From: a virus
Virus record (IMG/VR): IMGVR_UViG_3300038834_000101
Location: 1 to 20,617 of that record
DNA length: 20,617 nt
Reading direction: 5' to 3' (one strand)
In this document: positions 3,137-13,961 of the stretch, in pieces
How positions within the stretch are numbered: the first letter of the stretch is position 1
How the letters are laid out: each line of letters starts with the position of its first letter
Translations under genes and position numbers: made by a program
Notes under the pieces: model-generated
The model's input: only the letters and a program-made list of their open reading frames with translations
Database searches by the model: none
Told to the model about the DNA's origin: nothing

Positions 3137-4609
3137 ATGACTTACTCCGTTCCTGGCCTAGTTCGCACTCATTTGGTCAGCAGTTCCTATATGGGGACTG
3201 TTGATAGTCCTTTTGTAAGGACACGAGCTGTGATCGACCAGATGAAGGGCTGGGAGATCATGAAGGCCGTTACCAACGGCACGGAGTATTTACGCGAAAA
3301 CAGCGAAGCATTTCTGCCGCTAGAGCCGCGTGAGGACTACACCGCATACCTTGCGCGGGTCAATCGATCAGTTTTTACGCCTTACACGCAGCGTTTAATT
3401 CGAGCGGCTGCTGGCTTAATACTTCGCAAGCCAATTAGCGTAGAAGGCGACCCTTATTGGACAGATGTCTTTAATAAGGACGTTGATGGCTGTGGATCGG
3501 ATTTAGATGAATACGCTCGACGACTCTTGATTTGTGCCCTGACGTATGGGCACTGTCACACGCTGGTTGATTTTCCTGCGCCTTCGGGTGCAAGAAGTCT
3601 TGCAGAAGAGCGTGCTCTTAATCGTCGGCCCTATTGGATTGAGGTGGATCCCACTCAGATCTACGGTTGGCGACTGGACCGCGAAACCAATTACGGAAAC
3701 CTTACGCAAGTTCGGATTGGAGAAAAGGCTGTAGTCCCTGACGGCGAGTTTGGAGAAAAGGTCTATGACCAAATCCGTGTCATCGAGCCTGGTCGTTATC
3801 GCGTCTTCCGGCAAGAAGAGCAGAAAAAAGAGATGCAAGGGAATTTCCCATACCCCTCTTCCTTCGATCAATCCGACGCTACGGAGGAGTATGAATTGGT
3901 TGAGTCTGGTCCTTACTCGCTCGATCAGATCCCCCTGGTAACGATCTATGCAAATAAAACGGACACAATGACCAGTAAGCCACCGCTTCTGGACATTGCT
4001 CATCTCAATCTGGCCCATTATCAGCGGCAAGCGGATCTTATCCACAGTCTCCACATCGCTTCGCAACCGATGCTCGTCCTTGAAGGTTGGGACGACCAAA
4101 CGAAAGACATGGCTATCAGCGTTAATTACGCGATGGCGACCCAGCCGGGTAACAAGGTCTATTACGTGGAGCCTGCATCAAGCGCGTTTGAGGCGCAATC
4201 ATCGGAAATCCAGGAATTACAGCAACAGATGGCGACGCTGGGCATCAGTACGCTGAGCCAACAAAAGTTTGTTGCTGAATCTGCTGACGCACGCCGTCTG
4301 GATCGAATTGACACCAACTCAATGTTGTCGATGGTGTCAATGGATCTTGAGTCAGGCTTGCAAAAGTCTTATGACTTGGCGGCGAATTACTTGGGTCTTG
4401 AACCGCCCAAGGTGAAGATCAGTCGTGACTTTGACCTGCAACGCCTGATTGGGCAGGATATTGCTGCAATGGGTCAGCTGTTTGAGGATCAGGTGATCAG
4501 CCGTGAGGAGTTCCGCGACATGCTGGTGCAGGGCGAAATTTTGCCCACAGCAGCTGAGCAACAGCAAGAGCCGCTTAGCGATGTGGATAGGGCTGGTGGT
4601 ACGGTTTAG
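3137..4609 (+). CDS. Portal protein (DUF4055 type)
   Basis: The portal forms the dodecameric ring at one capsid vertex through which DNA enters and leaves. The 490-residue product has the portal layout: an N-terminal wing with YLPLEPR-like 'AFLPLEPREDYTAYLARV', RSVFTPYTQRLIRAAAGLIL, a clip/stem region around residues 260-330 (IPLVTIYANKT, PPLLDIAHLNLAHYQRQADL), and a long C-terminal helical segment with SSEIQELQQQMATLG. The LDIAHLNLAHYQ...D stretch is the hallmark I use for DUF4055 portals, a family in phages of cyanobacteria and others. It starts four bases after the preceding stop and is followed by scaffold and capsid, as expected. The C-terminal 25 residues are Gln/Glu-rich. Confidence 0.85.
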   Translation: MTYSVPGLVRTHLVSSSYMGTVDSPFVRTRAVIDQMKGWEIMKAVTNGTEYLRENSEAFLPLEPREDYTAYLARVNRSVFTPYTQRLIRAAAGLILRKPISVEGDPYWTDVFNKDVDGCGSDLDEYARRLLICALTYGHCHTLVDFPAPSGARSLAEERALNRRPYWIEVDPTQIYGWRLDRETNYGNLTQVRIGEKAVVPDGEFGEKVYDQIRVIEPGRYRVFRQEEQKKEMQGNFPYPSSFDQSDATEEYELVESGPYSLDQIPLVTIYANKTDTMTSKPPLLDIAHLNLAHYQRQADLIHSLHIASQPMLVLEGWDDQTKDMAISVNYAMATQPGNKVYYVEPASSAFEAQSSEIQELQQQMATLGISTLSQQKFVAESADARRLDRIDTNSMLSMVSMDLESGLQKSYDLAANYLGLEPPKVKISRDFDLQRLIGQDIAAMGQLFEDQVISREEFRDMLVQGEILPTAAEQQQEPLSDVDRAGGTV

Positions 4610-6706: not shown

Positions 6707-6723
6707 TCTCTGATCAGACAAAC

Positions 6724-6756
6724 GGCCCTACCATTAGGTGGGGCCTTCTTCTTTTT
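6724..6756 (+). terminator. Intrinsic terminator after the capsid gene
   Basis: GGCCCTACC-ATTA-GGTGGGGCC forms a 9-bp stem (one T-G pair) with a 4-nt loop, followed directly by TTCTTCTTTTT. This is a textbook rho-independent terminator 17 bases after the capsid stop. Its T-run ends three bases before the next ATG, so downstream genes need readthrough or another promoter. Confidence 0.9.
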
Positions 6757-6759
6757 CAC

Positions 6760-8271: not shown

Positions 8272-8759
8272 TGGCTAAGCCGATCACTGAGCTGACTAAG
8301 GATATTCGTAAGTTGATTGAGGATGGACGAGCAGCTGCTGGTCCAGAGATTGTTTTCAGCTTGCAAATGAAAGGTCCTTGGTGGACTGGAAACTTTGGTG
8401 AGTTGTGGGCACTTAATACTGTTCCAGTCAAGCCAGTCGTGGACATTGATCGTGACTGGCAGGCTCCGAACATGCCTACTCCTCGAAACTTTTTGCGACG
8501 CCCTGTTTTAAGAGTTCCAATCAACAGCCCCTTATACATCGGCAACTTGGCTGATTACGCAGGATATGCCGTCAATAATCCACAAGCCAAGCTTCCAGAC
8601 AGCGAAGGAGTTCCCAAGACTTACGGTCAAACTAGGCCGCCGCAGAGAAGTACAGCCAAGCCAGGACCAAGCTGGTACAAGATTTATACGGAAACCAGTA
8701 GAGATACAGGTTTGTTTCTTGACCTAGACATAGCTTTTCAAGGCGTTCGCTTAGGATGA
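8271..8759 (+). CDS. Neck/tail-completion protein, HK97 gp10-like
   Basis: A 162-residue protein with an N-terminal helix (ITELTKDIRKLIEDGRAAAG), PWWTGNFGELW, a basic middle, VPINSPLYIGNLADYAGYAV and a C-terminal LFLDLDIAFQGVRLG. The 'wTG.l..sW' plus 'i.N...YA.yvn.g' combination is characteristic of HK97 gp10-like neck proteins that fill the head-tail interface. Normally this gene precedes the tail terminator; here it follows it. Translation is coupled to the previous gene by a TAATG overlap. The identification is good at the superfamily level. Confidence 0.7.
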   Translation: MAKPITELTKDIRKLIEDGRAAAGPEIVFSLQMKGPWWTGNFGELWALNTVPVKPVVDIDRDWQAPNMPTPRNFLRRPVLRVPINSPLYIGNLADYAGYAVNNPQAKLPDSEGVPKTYGQTRPPQRSTAKPGPSWYKIYTETSRDTGLFLDLDIAFQGVRLG

Positions 8760-8787
8760 GCTATATTGTGCTAGTTGACTGAGTTTT

Positions 8788-9159
8788 ATGGCTGAAGCAC
8801 GCGCAATCGACATGCTGTGTAAGGCGTTTAGCGTCGAAGAGCGCAGCAGCTATACCATCAAAAAAGGTGGTGAGGTCGTTATCAAGCTGTATTGGAAGCC
8901 TTTGACCATTGCTGATCGGGACTCGATCAACAAGACTATGAAGGCGCTGAACTTGGGGCGTACAGAGGACAACTTGGATTTTGCGATCCAAATGTTGATC
9001 CGTAAGGCTGAGGACGAGGCTGGCAATCGTGTTTTTTCAGATGGTGACCGTGCCAAGATCCAAAACCGACTTCCAATGAGCATCGTGCTGGACATCATGT
9101 CCAAGATGCAAGGCATGGAAGAGGTGGAAGAAGCGGACGACCTTAAAAGCGACGCTTGA
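8788..9159 (+). CDS. Tail assembly chaperone, short product (gpG-like)
   Basis: The 123-residue protein should coat the tape measure protein before tube polymerisation and not enter the virion. It is a compact helical protein: a beta start SYTIKKGGEVVIKLYWKPLT, ADRDSINKTMKALNL, then LDFAIQMLIRKAEDEAGNRV and LPMSIVLDIMSKMQG before an acidic tail ending in TGA. The 'W-k-P-l-t' followed by 'lD.a..llIrka.de.G...F' pattern fits gpG-type chaperones. Immediately upstream of the stop lies CTT-AAA-AGC, and a second frame continuing as a gpT-like protein begins there (see next entry). A 28-base gap precedes the ATG. Confidence 0.8.
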   Translation: MAEARAIDMLCKAFSVEERSSYTIKKGGEVVIKLYWKPLTIADRDSINKTMKALNLGRTEDNLDFAIQMLIRKAEDEAGNRVFSDGDRAKIQNRLPMSIVLDIMSKMQGMEEVEEADDLKSDA

Positions 9160-9182
9160 GCAGGACAACTACTTGTTCCTGC
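9145..9182 (+). promoter_or_regulatory. Candidate +1 recoding site with downstream stem-loop
   Basis: CTT-AAA-A-GC (slip at 9145-9148) is followed, 11 bases later, by GCAGGACAA-CTAC-TTGTTCCTGC (9160-9182), a 9-bp stem with a single bulged T and a 4-nt loop. The zero-frame TGA lies at 9157-9159, just before the stem. An internal GAGGTG at 9121-9126 resembles a Shine-Dalgarno. Together these look like a programmed frameshift signal. Confidence 0.55.
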
Positions 9183-9349
9183 AGTTTTTCATCGCTGAAA
9201 AGCTCGGAATGACGCTGGGTCAGCTGCGCTCCACAATGTCAGCTGAAGAGCTGCAAGGCTGGAGCGTGTATCTGGCGTTGAAGTCTGAGCGAGAGGAGAA
9301 GGAGATGGAGAGGGTTCGTCAGCAGGCTCAGTTTCGGAAGGTGCGCTAA
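9149..9349 (+). CDS. Frameshift extension of tail chaperone (gpT-like)
   Basis: This 66-residue extension lies in the +1 frame relative to the chaperone and has no ATG or GTG of its own; upstream in its frame a stop occurs about 70 bases before, and the only ordinary start candidate is a TTG inside the conserved part. Read from the slip it gives ATLEQDNYLFLQFFIAEKLG, MTLGQLRSTMSAEELQGWSV and a charged coiled tail ending QFRKVR. 'LGMT..qLr..MSaeEL.gW..Y..l' is the classic gpT pattern that follows frameshifting in lambda-like tails. The joint is best explained by Lys-tRNA moving from AAA (9145-9147) to AAA (9146-9148), then reading GCG. The full G-T product would be about 186 residues. Frame and homology pattern are seen; the mechanism is inference. 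Confidence 0.75.
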   Translation, partial: ATLEQDNYLFLQFFIAEKLGMTLGQLRSTMSAEELQGWSVYLALKSEREEKEMERVRQQAQFRKVR

Positions 9350-9374
9350 CCTGAAGGCAATGTCTTCGGGTTAG
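9346..9374 (+). promoter_or_regulatory. 11-bp hairpin between chaperone and tape measure
   Basis: CTAACCTGAAG-GCAATGT-CTTCGGGTTAG pairs along all 11 positions (one T-G) around a 7-nt loop. The extension's TAA stop (9347-9349) is inside the 5' arm, and the 3' arm ends two bases before the GTG start of the tape measure (9377). There is no T-run, so it is not an intrinsic terminator. It would occlude the tape-measure initiation region unless melted by a ribosome. Confidence 0.7.
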
Positions 9375-9376
9375 TC

Positions 9377-12268
9377 GTGGCCGCTGAGTACGAAGTCAAT
9401 ATCAAGCTAAATACTCAGCAGATCGAGCGAGAGCTTAAGAAGGTTGATAGGGCTGTAAATAGCATTGGTAAAGGCAAAGGCGGAAAAAAACAGCCTATTC
9501 TTGCTCTTCCTAGTACAGACCAGCTATCTGCGGCAACGCGAAAAATTAAAGAACTTGACGGCTATAACAGAAAAATTCATTTAACGCAAAAGCAAATAAA
9601 TAAACAGACAAGAGATCAAGCTTTAAGCATAGACACACTTGTCAAAACGCAGGAAAAGCGTGCCCGCTTGTTGAACAAAATCAACGAGATGGAGGCAAAG
9701 GGCCTCAATGTCAGCAAGTTGAGAAAACAGTTAGCAAAAGCTACAACCGAGCAAAGCGCAAGACGTTTTGGCAGTGCTGAAAAAGAATTTCGCATTTTAG
9801 AAAAAAGTATTCGTTTAGAACAGTCCAAGCTGCGAATTCTCAAAGAACAGCGCAAAGGATTTCCATCAAGCCCTGTTCGTGGAACGCCGGCAATGATGGG
9901 CTCTCCAGCTCAGATTGCTGCATCTGGCAGACAAGCAGTAAGTCCTATTGGCGGCAGGATAGACATTGCTGGTTCTCCAGCTCAAATGGAAGCCATCAGA
10001 AAACTAGAAATGGCCGAAATACGAGCAGATAAAAATGCTCACTTTGCAGAATTAAAGCTGATACAGAAAAGGCAAAAAATAGAATTAGACAATGTAGATA
10101 AGTTGTTAGCGGCTGATTTAAGAGCGCTTGACAAGTTTGACAGAAGACTTGAGGCGTCTGATAGAGCGCGTCAAAAGCGACTGGCTGGCGCTCCAATCCC
10201 TGGGCTCAGAGGTCGAACATTTGGGCCATCACCAGCTTTTGCCGGACGTATTGCATCACCTATTGCTGGAACGGCAGGTACTCCCGGCTCTCCAGAGTTC
10301 AACAGAGCGCTTGAGATTGGTCGTCTCAGAAGCAGCCCTATTCAAGGGCGTAGAGACATTGCGGGATCACCTGAGGCTCGCAGGCTCAGAAGGCAACGTC
10401 TTGAGCAAGTTGGTCTTGGCGCTGGCTTCCCGCTGCTATTTGGCGGTGGAGCGGGATCAGTCATTGGCGGCGCTGCAGGTGGCTTAACAGGGTCATTTGG
10501 AGCGCAGATTGCATTCAGCGCCATTGGTCAGCAGATTGATCAGTTTGTTGCAAGTATGGTCGATGCTGGCAAAGCGTTGACCAGTGTTGGTGGTGCGGCT
10601 GACTTTATGGCCGAAAAGAGCTTGTTTAGCTCTGATGCGATGCAGTTCCGTATTGAGAAGCTAATTGAAGAGGGTCAAGTCACTGAAGCGGCTGCGTTAA
10701 TGACGCAGGAAATGGCGAAACAGGTCGGTGGCAGCGGCTTGAAAGCCTTGAAGGATTTGGGCACTGAAGCCAGCAAGATGGGCAAGTTGTTTAATGCGTT
10801 GATACTTCAAGTTCAAGCGTTTATTTCAAGAGCTTTGACTCCGTTGTTAGCCGCAATAAATAAGGTTGTTGGAGATATTGTGCTAAATAATCAGTTCAAC
10901 GCTTTGATGAGCGAAGCTACGGGCGCTAGAGCAAAAGAAATTGAAGAGTTTTTAAAGCCGTTTACTAAGACAGCTAGAAAAGGTGCTGCAGCTAAAGACG
11001 TAGTTACAAGCGAAGGTAAGCGCCTTGCTGTAGAAAGATTCGGCGGCCAAGTTATCCCAGAAGGCGCTGGTATCGAGCCAACACAATTAGAGCTGCTTAG
11101 AGCTGCAGACACGCCTAAGCGCAAAACAAGAGAAAGTCGCGTTCCTGAGCTGCAGATAGAAGTCAGCCTGACAGAGCGACTAAATGCTTTGAACAGGCAG
11201 GTTCTGGAAGCTAAGCGAGCTGAAAATCCAGTCAGGGAAGCTGCTCTGAAAATGGAGATAGCGCTTGAAGAGCAAGCGGCAGGAATTCAAAAAATAAATA
11301 ACAAAAAAATTCCTCAGGAAGAAAAAAATCTGCAAATTAAAAAACTTGAATTGCAGACTGATCAAAAAATCTTTGAAATTAACGACAAGTTTTCTGCTTC
11401 TAGGGCGGCTCAGGCTGAAAAGAATGAAAAAATTCTTGCTGATCTTCAGAGTCAAAATGACTTACTGCAAGCAAAGCTTGATGGACGCTTGAAAGAAGAA
11501 GAGATTGAGCAGCGAATCAGAGACCTTGCAGAGGATAATCAAGGTTTAGATGAAAAAGCAGTTCGCAATCTTCTTGAGAAGAATAAACTTCTCAACGAGC
11601 AGATCGCTGCTGCTGAACAGCTTGATCAGCTTTATCAATCTATCGGAAACACCATCGCTAACGGCGTTGTTAATGCGCTGGAGGGTGCGGTGATGGGCAC
11701 TCAGTCGCTTGCGGATGCTGCATCAAGTATGTTGAATAACCTTGCGAGACAAATGCTGCAAATTGCCACCAACATGGCACTGTTTGGCAACATGGGCGGC
11801 ACTTTTGAGTCGGGTTCAGGTCTTTTCGGAACAATAGCTCAGGGAATTATTTCCGGATTTAGTGGCGGTCTTGGCAGCGGTGGTGATGGCTCTGGTTTTG
11901 TAACGACTACTGACGGTCTCACTGCGACTGCGAATGGCAACGCATTTGGTCGAAACGGAGTTGTTCCGTTCGCAAGAGGTGGTGTAGTTAATCGACCTAC
12001 CTTGTTCCCGTTTGCGAATGGCACTGGCCTTATGGGTGAGGCTGGACCAGAGGCGATCATGCCTTTGCGCAGAAGCCCTGATGGCCGCCTTGGCGTTGAG
12101 GCTTCTGGAGGTGGAGCGGGACCTACCAACATCGTTGTGAATGTTGACGCTTCAGGCTCTAATGTCGAGGGTGATAGCCAACAGCAAAAAGCACTCGGCA
12201 AGGCCATTGGTTTGGCTGTCCAGTCTGAAATTGCCAAGCAAAAACGTCCTGGAGGTCTTCTGAGCTAA
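9377..12268 (+). CDS. Tape measure protein
   Basis: The 963-residue protein sets tail length and travels in the tube lumen; at about 0.15 nm per residue it predicts a tail near 140 nm. It starts AAEYEVNIKLNTQQIERELK, has long helical, Lys/Glu-rich coiled coils (about 60-165, 210-265, 610-760), and a glycine-rich hydrophobic stretch (about 350-385, FGGGAGSVIGGAAGGLTGSF). A second Gly-rich C-terminal part ends with FARGGVVNRPTLFPFANGTG and GEAGPEAIMPLRRSPDGRLG, a well-known tape-measure C-terminal motif. Four 18-residue Pro/Gly repeats lie at 164-336. Parts are notably AT-rich (15 of 60 bases G/C in 9541-9600). The GTG at 9377 gives the standard N-terminus; initiation may be controlled by the preceding hairpin. 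Its stop overlaps the next ATG. Confidence 0.93.
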   Translation: MAAEYEVNIKLNTQQIERELKKVDRAVNSIGKGKGGKKQPILALPSTDQLSAATRKIKELDGYNRKIHLTQKQINKQTRDQALSIDTLVKTQEKRARLLNKINEMEAKGLNVSKLRKQLAKATTEQSARRFGSAEKEFRILEKSIRLEQSKLRILKEQRKGFPSSPVRGTPAMMGSPAQIAASGRQAVSPIGGRIDIAGSPAQMEAIRKLEMAEIRADKNAHFAELKLIQKRQKIELDNVDKLLAADLRALDKFDRRLEASDRARQKRLAGAPIPGLRGRTFGPSPAFAGRIASPIAGTAGTPGSPEFNRALEIGRLRSSPIQGRRDIAGSPEARRLRRQRLEQVGLGAGFPLLFGGGAGSVIGGAAGGLTGSFGAQIAFSAIGQQIDQFVASMVDAGKALTSVGGAADFMAEKSLFSSDAMQFRIEKLIEEGQVTEAAALMTQEMAKQVGGSGLKALKDLGTEASKMGKLFNALILQVQAFISRALTPLLAAINKVVGDIVLNNQFNALMSEATGARAKEIEEFLKPFTKTARKGAAAKDVVTSEGKRLAVERFGGQVIPEGAGIEPTQLELLRAADTPKRKTRESRVPELQIEVSLTERLNALNRQVLEAKRAENPVREAALKMEIALEEQAAGIQKINNKKIPQEEKNLQIKKLELQTDQKIFEINDKFSASRAAQAEKNEKILADLQSQNDLLQAKLDGRLKEEEIEQRIRDLAEDNQGLDEKAVRNLLEKNKLLNEQIAAAEQLDQLYQSIGNTIANGVVNALEGAVMGTQSLADAASSMLNNLARQMLQIATNMALFGNMGGTFESGSGLFGTIAQGIISGFSGGLGSGGDGSGFVTTTDGLTATANGNAFGRNGVVPFARGGVVNRPTLFPFANGTGLMGEAGPEAIMPLRRSPDGRLGVEASGGGAGPTNIVVNVDASGSNVEGDSQQQKALGKAIGLAVQSEIAKQKRPGGLLS
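9866..10384 (+). repeat. Four 18-residue Pro/Gly repeats inside the tape measure
   Basis: Residues 164-181, 188-205, 293-310 and 319-336 align without gaps as x-S-P-[I/V]-x-G-x5-G-S-P-[A/E]-x3, e.g. SPIGGRIDIAGSPAQ and SPIQGRRDIAGSPEA. They form two pairs (24 and 26 residues apart) that are separated by a helical stretch. Confidence 0.85.
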
Positions 12269-13593: not shown

Positions 13594-13961
13594 GTCGTCA
13601 GTGGGAGTACGGCGTCAACGATTGCTTTACGTTGATCCGTGATTGGTTTGGGTTGCAGGGCGTTGAGTTGCCTGACTTTTCACGCCCAGACGACTTAGAG
13701 GTCTGCGACAGCATCTTCCTGCAACAGGCGGAAGCGATTGGGTTTGAGCAGGTGTTCTTGGAGCGGCGAAAGCCCGGTGATGTTTTGATTATGCGATTGG
13801 GCACGAAAACGCCAATGCACGCTGCGATTTTGTTGCCTGACGAGTTGATTCTTCACCAACGGCAGGATTCATTGAGTGCGATTGAGCCGTTGCGGCGGTA
13901 CTATGTCGAAAGGATTGCAGCAGTGTTCCGCTATGCAGCAGGTCGTCCGACTGCTGGGTGA
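13539..13961 (+). CDS. NlpC/P60 peptidase domain, C-terminal half of gpK-like protein
   Basis: This 140-residue frame encodes the cysteine peptidase expected to cut peptidoglycan stem peptides during infection. It shows VGRQWEYGVNDCFTLIRDWF (nucleophile C29), LPDFSRPDD, a KPGDVLIMRL strand and TPMHAAILLPDELILHQ with catalytic-type H94 and H106. The first 15 or so residues (MAYLERARQAMV) are a shifted reading of the JAB-domain end and are unlikely to be functional; the ATG at 13569 is an alternative start. The frame is -1 relative to the JAB gene, so the original gpK-like protein appears split (see finding). The gpI-like gene begins inside its last 29 bases. Confidence 0.85.
   Translation: MAYLERARQAMVNYQSLVGRQWEYGVNDCFTLIRDWFGLQGVELPDFSRPDDLEVCDSIFLQQAEAIGFEQVFLERRKPGDVLIMRLGTKTPMHAAILLPDELILHQRQDSLSAIEPLRRYYVERIAAVFRYAAGRPTAG

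Follow-up and report, generated by a model that had tools for sequence, protein, structure and literature searches.

Hairpins that tie the start of one gene to translation of the gene before it are established for MS2 coat-lysis, f1 genes VII-IX and E. coli rpmI-rplT, and one cited study found coupling in E. coli undiminished at +25 nt (PMC12548453). Another arrangement is known from phage T4, in which an intervening stem brings the SD spacing of gene 38 from 22 to 5 nt and that of gene 25 from 27 to 11 nt (PMC3014915). Lambda makes G and GT at a ratio of 30:1, and its tape measure carries a single GT next to many G (PMC5009743).

The junction that we compare with these systems lies in a 20,617-base virus record, analysed over its whole length and called the window below, from what is apparently a marine cyanophage-like siphovirus. 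Its portal matches the marine single-cell virus contig AG-345-A17 (81%) as well as cyanophages, and the group probably consists of uncultured marine tailed phages with, we infer, cyanobacterial hosts; a DNA-level search of cultured phages returned nothing matching, and neither did a pattern search of bacterial and archaeal genomes. On the plus strand lie G, next T, read in a different frame, and directly after them the tape-measure gene TMP. G (8788-9159) encodes the zero-frame product of 123 amino acids, a tail assembly chaperone by its matches to PHROG 20784 (6e-18) and PHROG 344, tail assembly chaperone (1e-6), and has 80 homologs. These 80 loci are 76-100% identical to the window G and make 81 sequences with the window itself; the counts given below, whether over all of them, over the 70 unique relatives or over the 27 distinct junction sequences, exaggerate independence, since the relatives are akin to each other.

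As the first-pass annotation had correctly stated, the zero frame of G stops at TGA 9157-9159, while the frameshift product continues to 9349 in the +1 (equivalently -2) frame. The predicted +1 slip site, AAA AGC at 9145-9150, is present as AAAAGC in 70/70 unique relatives; the Lys tRNA would re-pair on AAA one base further on, whereas the alternative -2 slip would set the P-site tRNA on UUA/UGA/UCA/UAA. T, the +1-frame extension of G (9146-9349, PHROG 337/26456), ends with TAA 9347-9349, a stop that each of the 81 sequences places exactly 562 nt from its G start; judged by the 61 downstream codons, which match PHROG tail families, the frame is genuine. Frameshifting is the main expected entry to this frame, although ribosomes could in principle also enter at one of two internal starts: ATG 9209, which is kept in 70/70 unique relatives but encodes a conserved Met, and the in-frame ATG 9305, found in 39/70, behind a strong purine-rich leader (GAGGAGAAGGAG, 9293-9307). 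The earlier claim that only frameshifted ribosomes open the hairpin downstream thus holds in so far as ribosomes in the T frame alone reach it, and is weakened by these two possible entries. Among homologous chaperones the slip direction switches, being +1 at AAA AGN in the window group and in the related clades A and C, and -1 at A AAA AAC in clade B (S-H1, KBS-S-2A). In S-H1 (L251, MK105819.1) the frameshift is unannotated, and what is annotated at 13781-13924 as a short hypothetical CDS is the T extension begun at an internal start.

TMP (9377-12268) matches PHROG 1716, tail length tape measure protein (2e-30), and has a GTG start in 64/64 cases. The hairpin that precedes it had been described as an 11-bp stem at 9346-9374, with the T stop in its 5' arm and its end 2 nt before GTG 9377, and these coordinates were all exact: the arms are 9346-9356 (CTAACCTGAAG) and 9364-9374 (CTTCGGGTTAG), and one of their pairs is U-G. 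Folded at 37 C with standard parameters, the hairpin has 13 pairs (9346-9358/9362-9374) around the loop AAU (9359-9361) and an energy of -17.3 kcal/mol alone. In the consensus fold, a weak lower stem (9342-9345/9376-9379, with U9375 bulged) ties the GTG start into the structure by pairing it with the last bases of T; it brings 9342-9379 to -22.1 kcal/mol, would cost about 3.7 kcal/mol to open, and retains its pairs in 27/27 distinct sequences. The region 9330-9400 has a z of -4.2, with 0/200 shuffles equally stable, and 9343-9375 is the lowest-energy 33-mer in the window, both strands considered. At the TMP start (positions -36 to +3) z is -7.7, compared with +1.2 to -2.5 at the other 17 gene starts inspected, which makes it the sole strongly structured start among them.

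The U-G pairs show that folding takes place in the mRNA strand (sense -17.3 vs antisense -10.2). A DNA palindrome or an antisense RNA is disfavoured, as the conserved U-G pairs fail on the opposite strand; the opposite-strand matches of a covariance model of the hairpin (E 0.01-0.5) are the palindrome itself. We also rejected an intrinsic terminator, the stem being followed by TCGTGGCC, with no U-tract. A probable intrinsic terminator (GGCCC...GGGGCC, then T-rich) is found elsewhere, at 6722-6757, directly after the major head protein gene. The hairpin also holds a tiny ORF that starts in the loop (9360-9374, ATG TCT TCG GGT TAG) and whose stop ends 2 nt before the GTG; its ATG is present in 67/70 and its TAG in 66/70 unique members.

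The hairpin is found at the same place, after the T stop, in the 80 relatives; the stop codon itself lies inside the 5' arm in 81/81 sequences, and the 27-nt gap between stop and start is invariant. Pairwise difference is 6% in the hairpin and 6% in the first TMP codons but reaches 17% for G, 22% for T and 44% deeper in TMP, which ranks the hairpin with the best conserved DNA from G to TMP; the non-coding 9350-9376 has changed less than the G and T coding sequence beside it. Over the 27 distinct junctions, 98.5% of cells are paired, compared with 33-46% when the partners are slid. Two pairs have changed on both sides, with a covariation score reached by 0/500 shuffles, and the bare count of pairs with two-sided changes is reached in 71/500. 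Pair 9355/9365 occurs as A-U, G-U and G-C, with about eight changes on the G-T tree, and is never unpaired, the G-C state having arisen in L031, in L065 and in the L060 group; pair 9356/9364 shows a compensatory change from G-C to A-U. Most other stem pairs are invariant and hence uninformative on covariation, and four of 70 members, the L033/L037 group, have an unpaired position at 9347/9373, three of these four having a second one. Because its place is fixed, its conservation high and its pairing kept by compensatory changes, this comparative evidence leads us to conclude that selection maintains the hairpin as an RNA element of the sense strand, and it thereby passed the covariation check that the first-pass annotation had proposed for homologous phages.

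The same observations bear on whether the hairpin arose by chance and has merely been conserved by descent, without function. The sequences are closely related, and 0.3 stems of at least 13 consecutive pairs (loop 3-8) are expected in the window from shuffles, against two places at which such stems are found; the good conservation of 9350-9376 relative to coding DNA and the compensated changes nevertheless leave this reading with very little credit. The second such stem, also of 13 bp, lies at 3176-3205 near the portal gene start. An element for RNA processing or stability, which would protect the TMP message or separate TMP from G-T, fits a stable stem at a gene junction, but the position is locked to both the T stop and the TMP start, the start belongs to the structure, there is no U-tract and only a single copy per searched contig, and Rfam matched nothing in 8700-9800; we consider it improbable. 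Still less probable, in our estimation, is a site bound by a protein of phage or host that would repress TMP translation, in the manner of T4 gp43 and its operator hairpin: GCAAUGU, the loop with the inner stem, hardly varies in sequence and not in pairing alone, yet the inner stem differs in the L060 and L025 groups and there is no candidate protein. Since the stem is conserved, compensated and locked between the T stop and the TMP start, it is likely instead that the hairpin controls initiation of TMP at this junction, and thus the amount of TMP.

How it would do so depends in part on the signals around the start. With a cut-off of -4 kcal/mol or lower for the anti-SD duplex, 0% of the unique window-group members have an SD at canonical distance before the TMP GTG; the TMP start of clade A is likewise without one, and in clade B 37% have it. 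Immediately before the stem, however, in the last T codons, lies a putative SD-like motif, AAGGTG (9338-9343), and a motif of this kind occurs at the end of T in 78% of the window group (55/70 unique members, vs 32% in the coding background), 89% of clade A and 81% of clade B, against a background of 23-32% overall. Codon choice points the same way: codon -4 is AGG in 17 of the 31 unique members that encode Arg there, while AGG makes up 2% of Arg codons, and most members of clades A and B have AGG or CGG as their final T codon, as opposed to roughly 8% and 20% of Arg codons. The motif thus looks selected by codon choice. It could serve as one half of a split (accommodated) RBS as in T4 genes 25 and 38, in which the hairpin would loop out 29 nt, bring AAGGTG to within about 4-6 nt of the GTG and so act as an activator, with initiation independent of frameshifting. 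The enrichment of the motif against the stem, the rare codons and the missing canonical SD all speak for this, as does the T4 precedent. On the other hand, the motif is absent in 15/70 unique members and 14 of those 15 retain a perfect stem, the GTG is itself paired in the lower stem, and many genes of the window phage start without an SD in any case; clades A and B have the motif with no stable stem, and in clade C, which lacks an SD there, a few members nevertheless have hairpins. A split RBS seems to us a possible but somewhat unlikely explanation.

Of these three clades, A is of the AG-345-A17 type and slips +1, B is of the S-H1 type and slips -1 at A AAA AAC, and C, whose G is 55-70% identical to that of L081, slips +1. 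All three have a frameshifted T, the same gene order, a T-TMP gap of 16-32 nt and mostly a GTG start, and in clades A and B the SD-like site lies 24-32 nt before the TMP start. Shuffles come out at least as structured as the gap in A, B and most of C, and the idea of a bridging hairpin at every G-T-TMP junction was rejected on that ground. With the covariance model a single true copy turned up per searched contig of the window group, and none among 61 other loci (clades A and B plus a TMP search), so that homologs of the hairpin sequence were found in the window group alone. A few members of clade C (L469, L470, L474, L445) do have a hairpin at the same place, of unrelated sequence, and the bases displayed contain no SD-like motif. 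The arms of this hairpin are CUAAACUUUU/AAAAGUUUAG in L469 and L474, with one mismatch in L470, and GCUAACC/GGUUAGC in L445. As the junction is kept where the hairpin is lacking, the hairpin is best understood as something that one lineage added to a junction already old and fixed. Every member of the window group and of clade C ends T with CGC before the stop (9344-9349; L442-L492); in clade C the count is 33/33, including 25/25 in AT-rich members where CGC makes up 13% of Arg codons. The surrounding GTRCGCTAA element is conserved too, and in most of clade C nothing obvious is there for it to pair with.

The explanation that we consider best, and prefer slightly to a split RBS, is a gate opened by ribosomes that finish T. 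De novo initiation at GTG 9377 would be poor, given the lack of a canonical SD and the position of the start at the foot of a stable stem. A ribosome translating T would stop at TAA 9347, where, with TAA in the A site, its footprint would cover roughly 9346-9359 and could melt the whole 5' arm. The same ribosome, or a subunit from it, would then reinitiate 27 nt downstream; reinitiation is needed because the hairpin should close again before a new 30S subunit can bind. As most ribosomes in T would have got there by +1 frameshifting, the output of TMP would track the flux of GT. Such a gate is favoured by the stem being kept in 14 of the 15 members in which the SD-like motif is missing, and we also count the clade C hairpins at the same spot in its favour; against it stand the SD-like motif upstream of the stem, which a split RBS explains better, and the unpaired positions in the L033/L037 group, and neither explanation accounts for clades A and B having the motif but no stem. 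Clades A, B and most of C, without excess structure, also imply that a gate is dispensable for tail assembly in general. Readthrough of the T stop into TMP, which follows in the same frame with no stop codon in the 27-nt gap, was weighed as well, and nothing spoke for it.

The original proposal, that the rate of frameshifting sets how much TMP is made and matches GT to its client in one step, is thus partly supported. The T stop always lies in the stem, the GTG in the lower stem, and a canonical SD is missing, and TMP tied to GT flux would yield a sensible ratio, because in lambda one GT serves among many G; but most relatives with a frameshifted T and the same gene order have a weak hairpin or none, so that matching cannot generally need one, and a split RBS fits as well. 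Control of TMP by admitting only frameshifted ribosomes is plausible from the arrangement of these elements, whereas the full claim, in which the hairpin blocks the TMP start unless a +1-frameshifted ribosome finishes T and each ribosome's single decision fixes the ratio of GT to client, appears doubtful to us. The best reading overall is a lineage-specific translation-initiation hairpin for TMP. No description of coupling between frameshifting and TMP appeared among the titles and abstracts searched, a set with subscription journals mostly outside it and hence weak evidence of novelty, and a 2025 review of translational coupling does not mention frameshifting (PMC12548453). If a gate exists, it would give a tailed phage a direct way to keep the rare GT and the ruler protein in step, with a recoding event controlling a second gene; if the junction holds a split RBS, phages of the sea that are known mainly through metagenomes would supply one more start that depends on structure. 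With some relatives that have the hairpin and others that do not, the question lends itself to a direct test.

Among known systems, MS2 offers a parallel in which rare frameshifted ribosomes would open a downstream start: Kastelein et al. in 1982, as cited in PMC5009743, reportedly proposed that lysis expression depends on frameshifting. The parallel has its limit, as the title of Berkhout et al. (1987), cited in the same paper, names normal termination at the coat gene as what activates lysis. The likeness to T4 genes 25 and 38 lies in the order of SD-like motif, stem and start, with a spacing of 33 nt unfolded and about 4-6 nt folded (PMC3014915); in the window group, by contrast, the motif is not universal, the stem persists without it, and the start is GTG and sits in a weak lower stem. 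Lambda shares the order of G, frameshifted GT and tape measure, with slippage near the end of G (PMC5009743), but slips -1, like clade B at A AAA AAC, where the window would slip +1 at AAA AGC. In the hairpin-gated systems, an inhibitory hairpin close to the downstream start is reached by ribosomes that translate, or terminate in, the cistron before it (PMC12548453): here, too, the start adjoins a stable structure, the T stop lets a terminating ribosome overlap it, and the GTG, 27 nt from that stop, is close to the +25 nt of the E. coli study (PMC12548453). They differ from the window in that its upstream cistron is reached mainly by programmed +1 frameshifting, and in that coupling, established there, is here a proposal.
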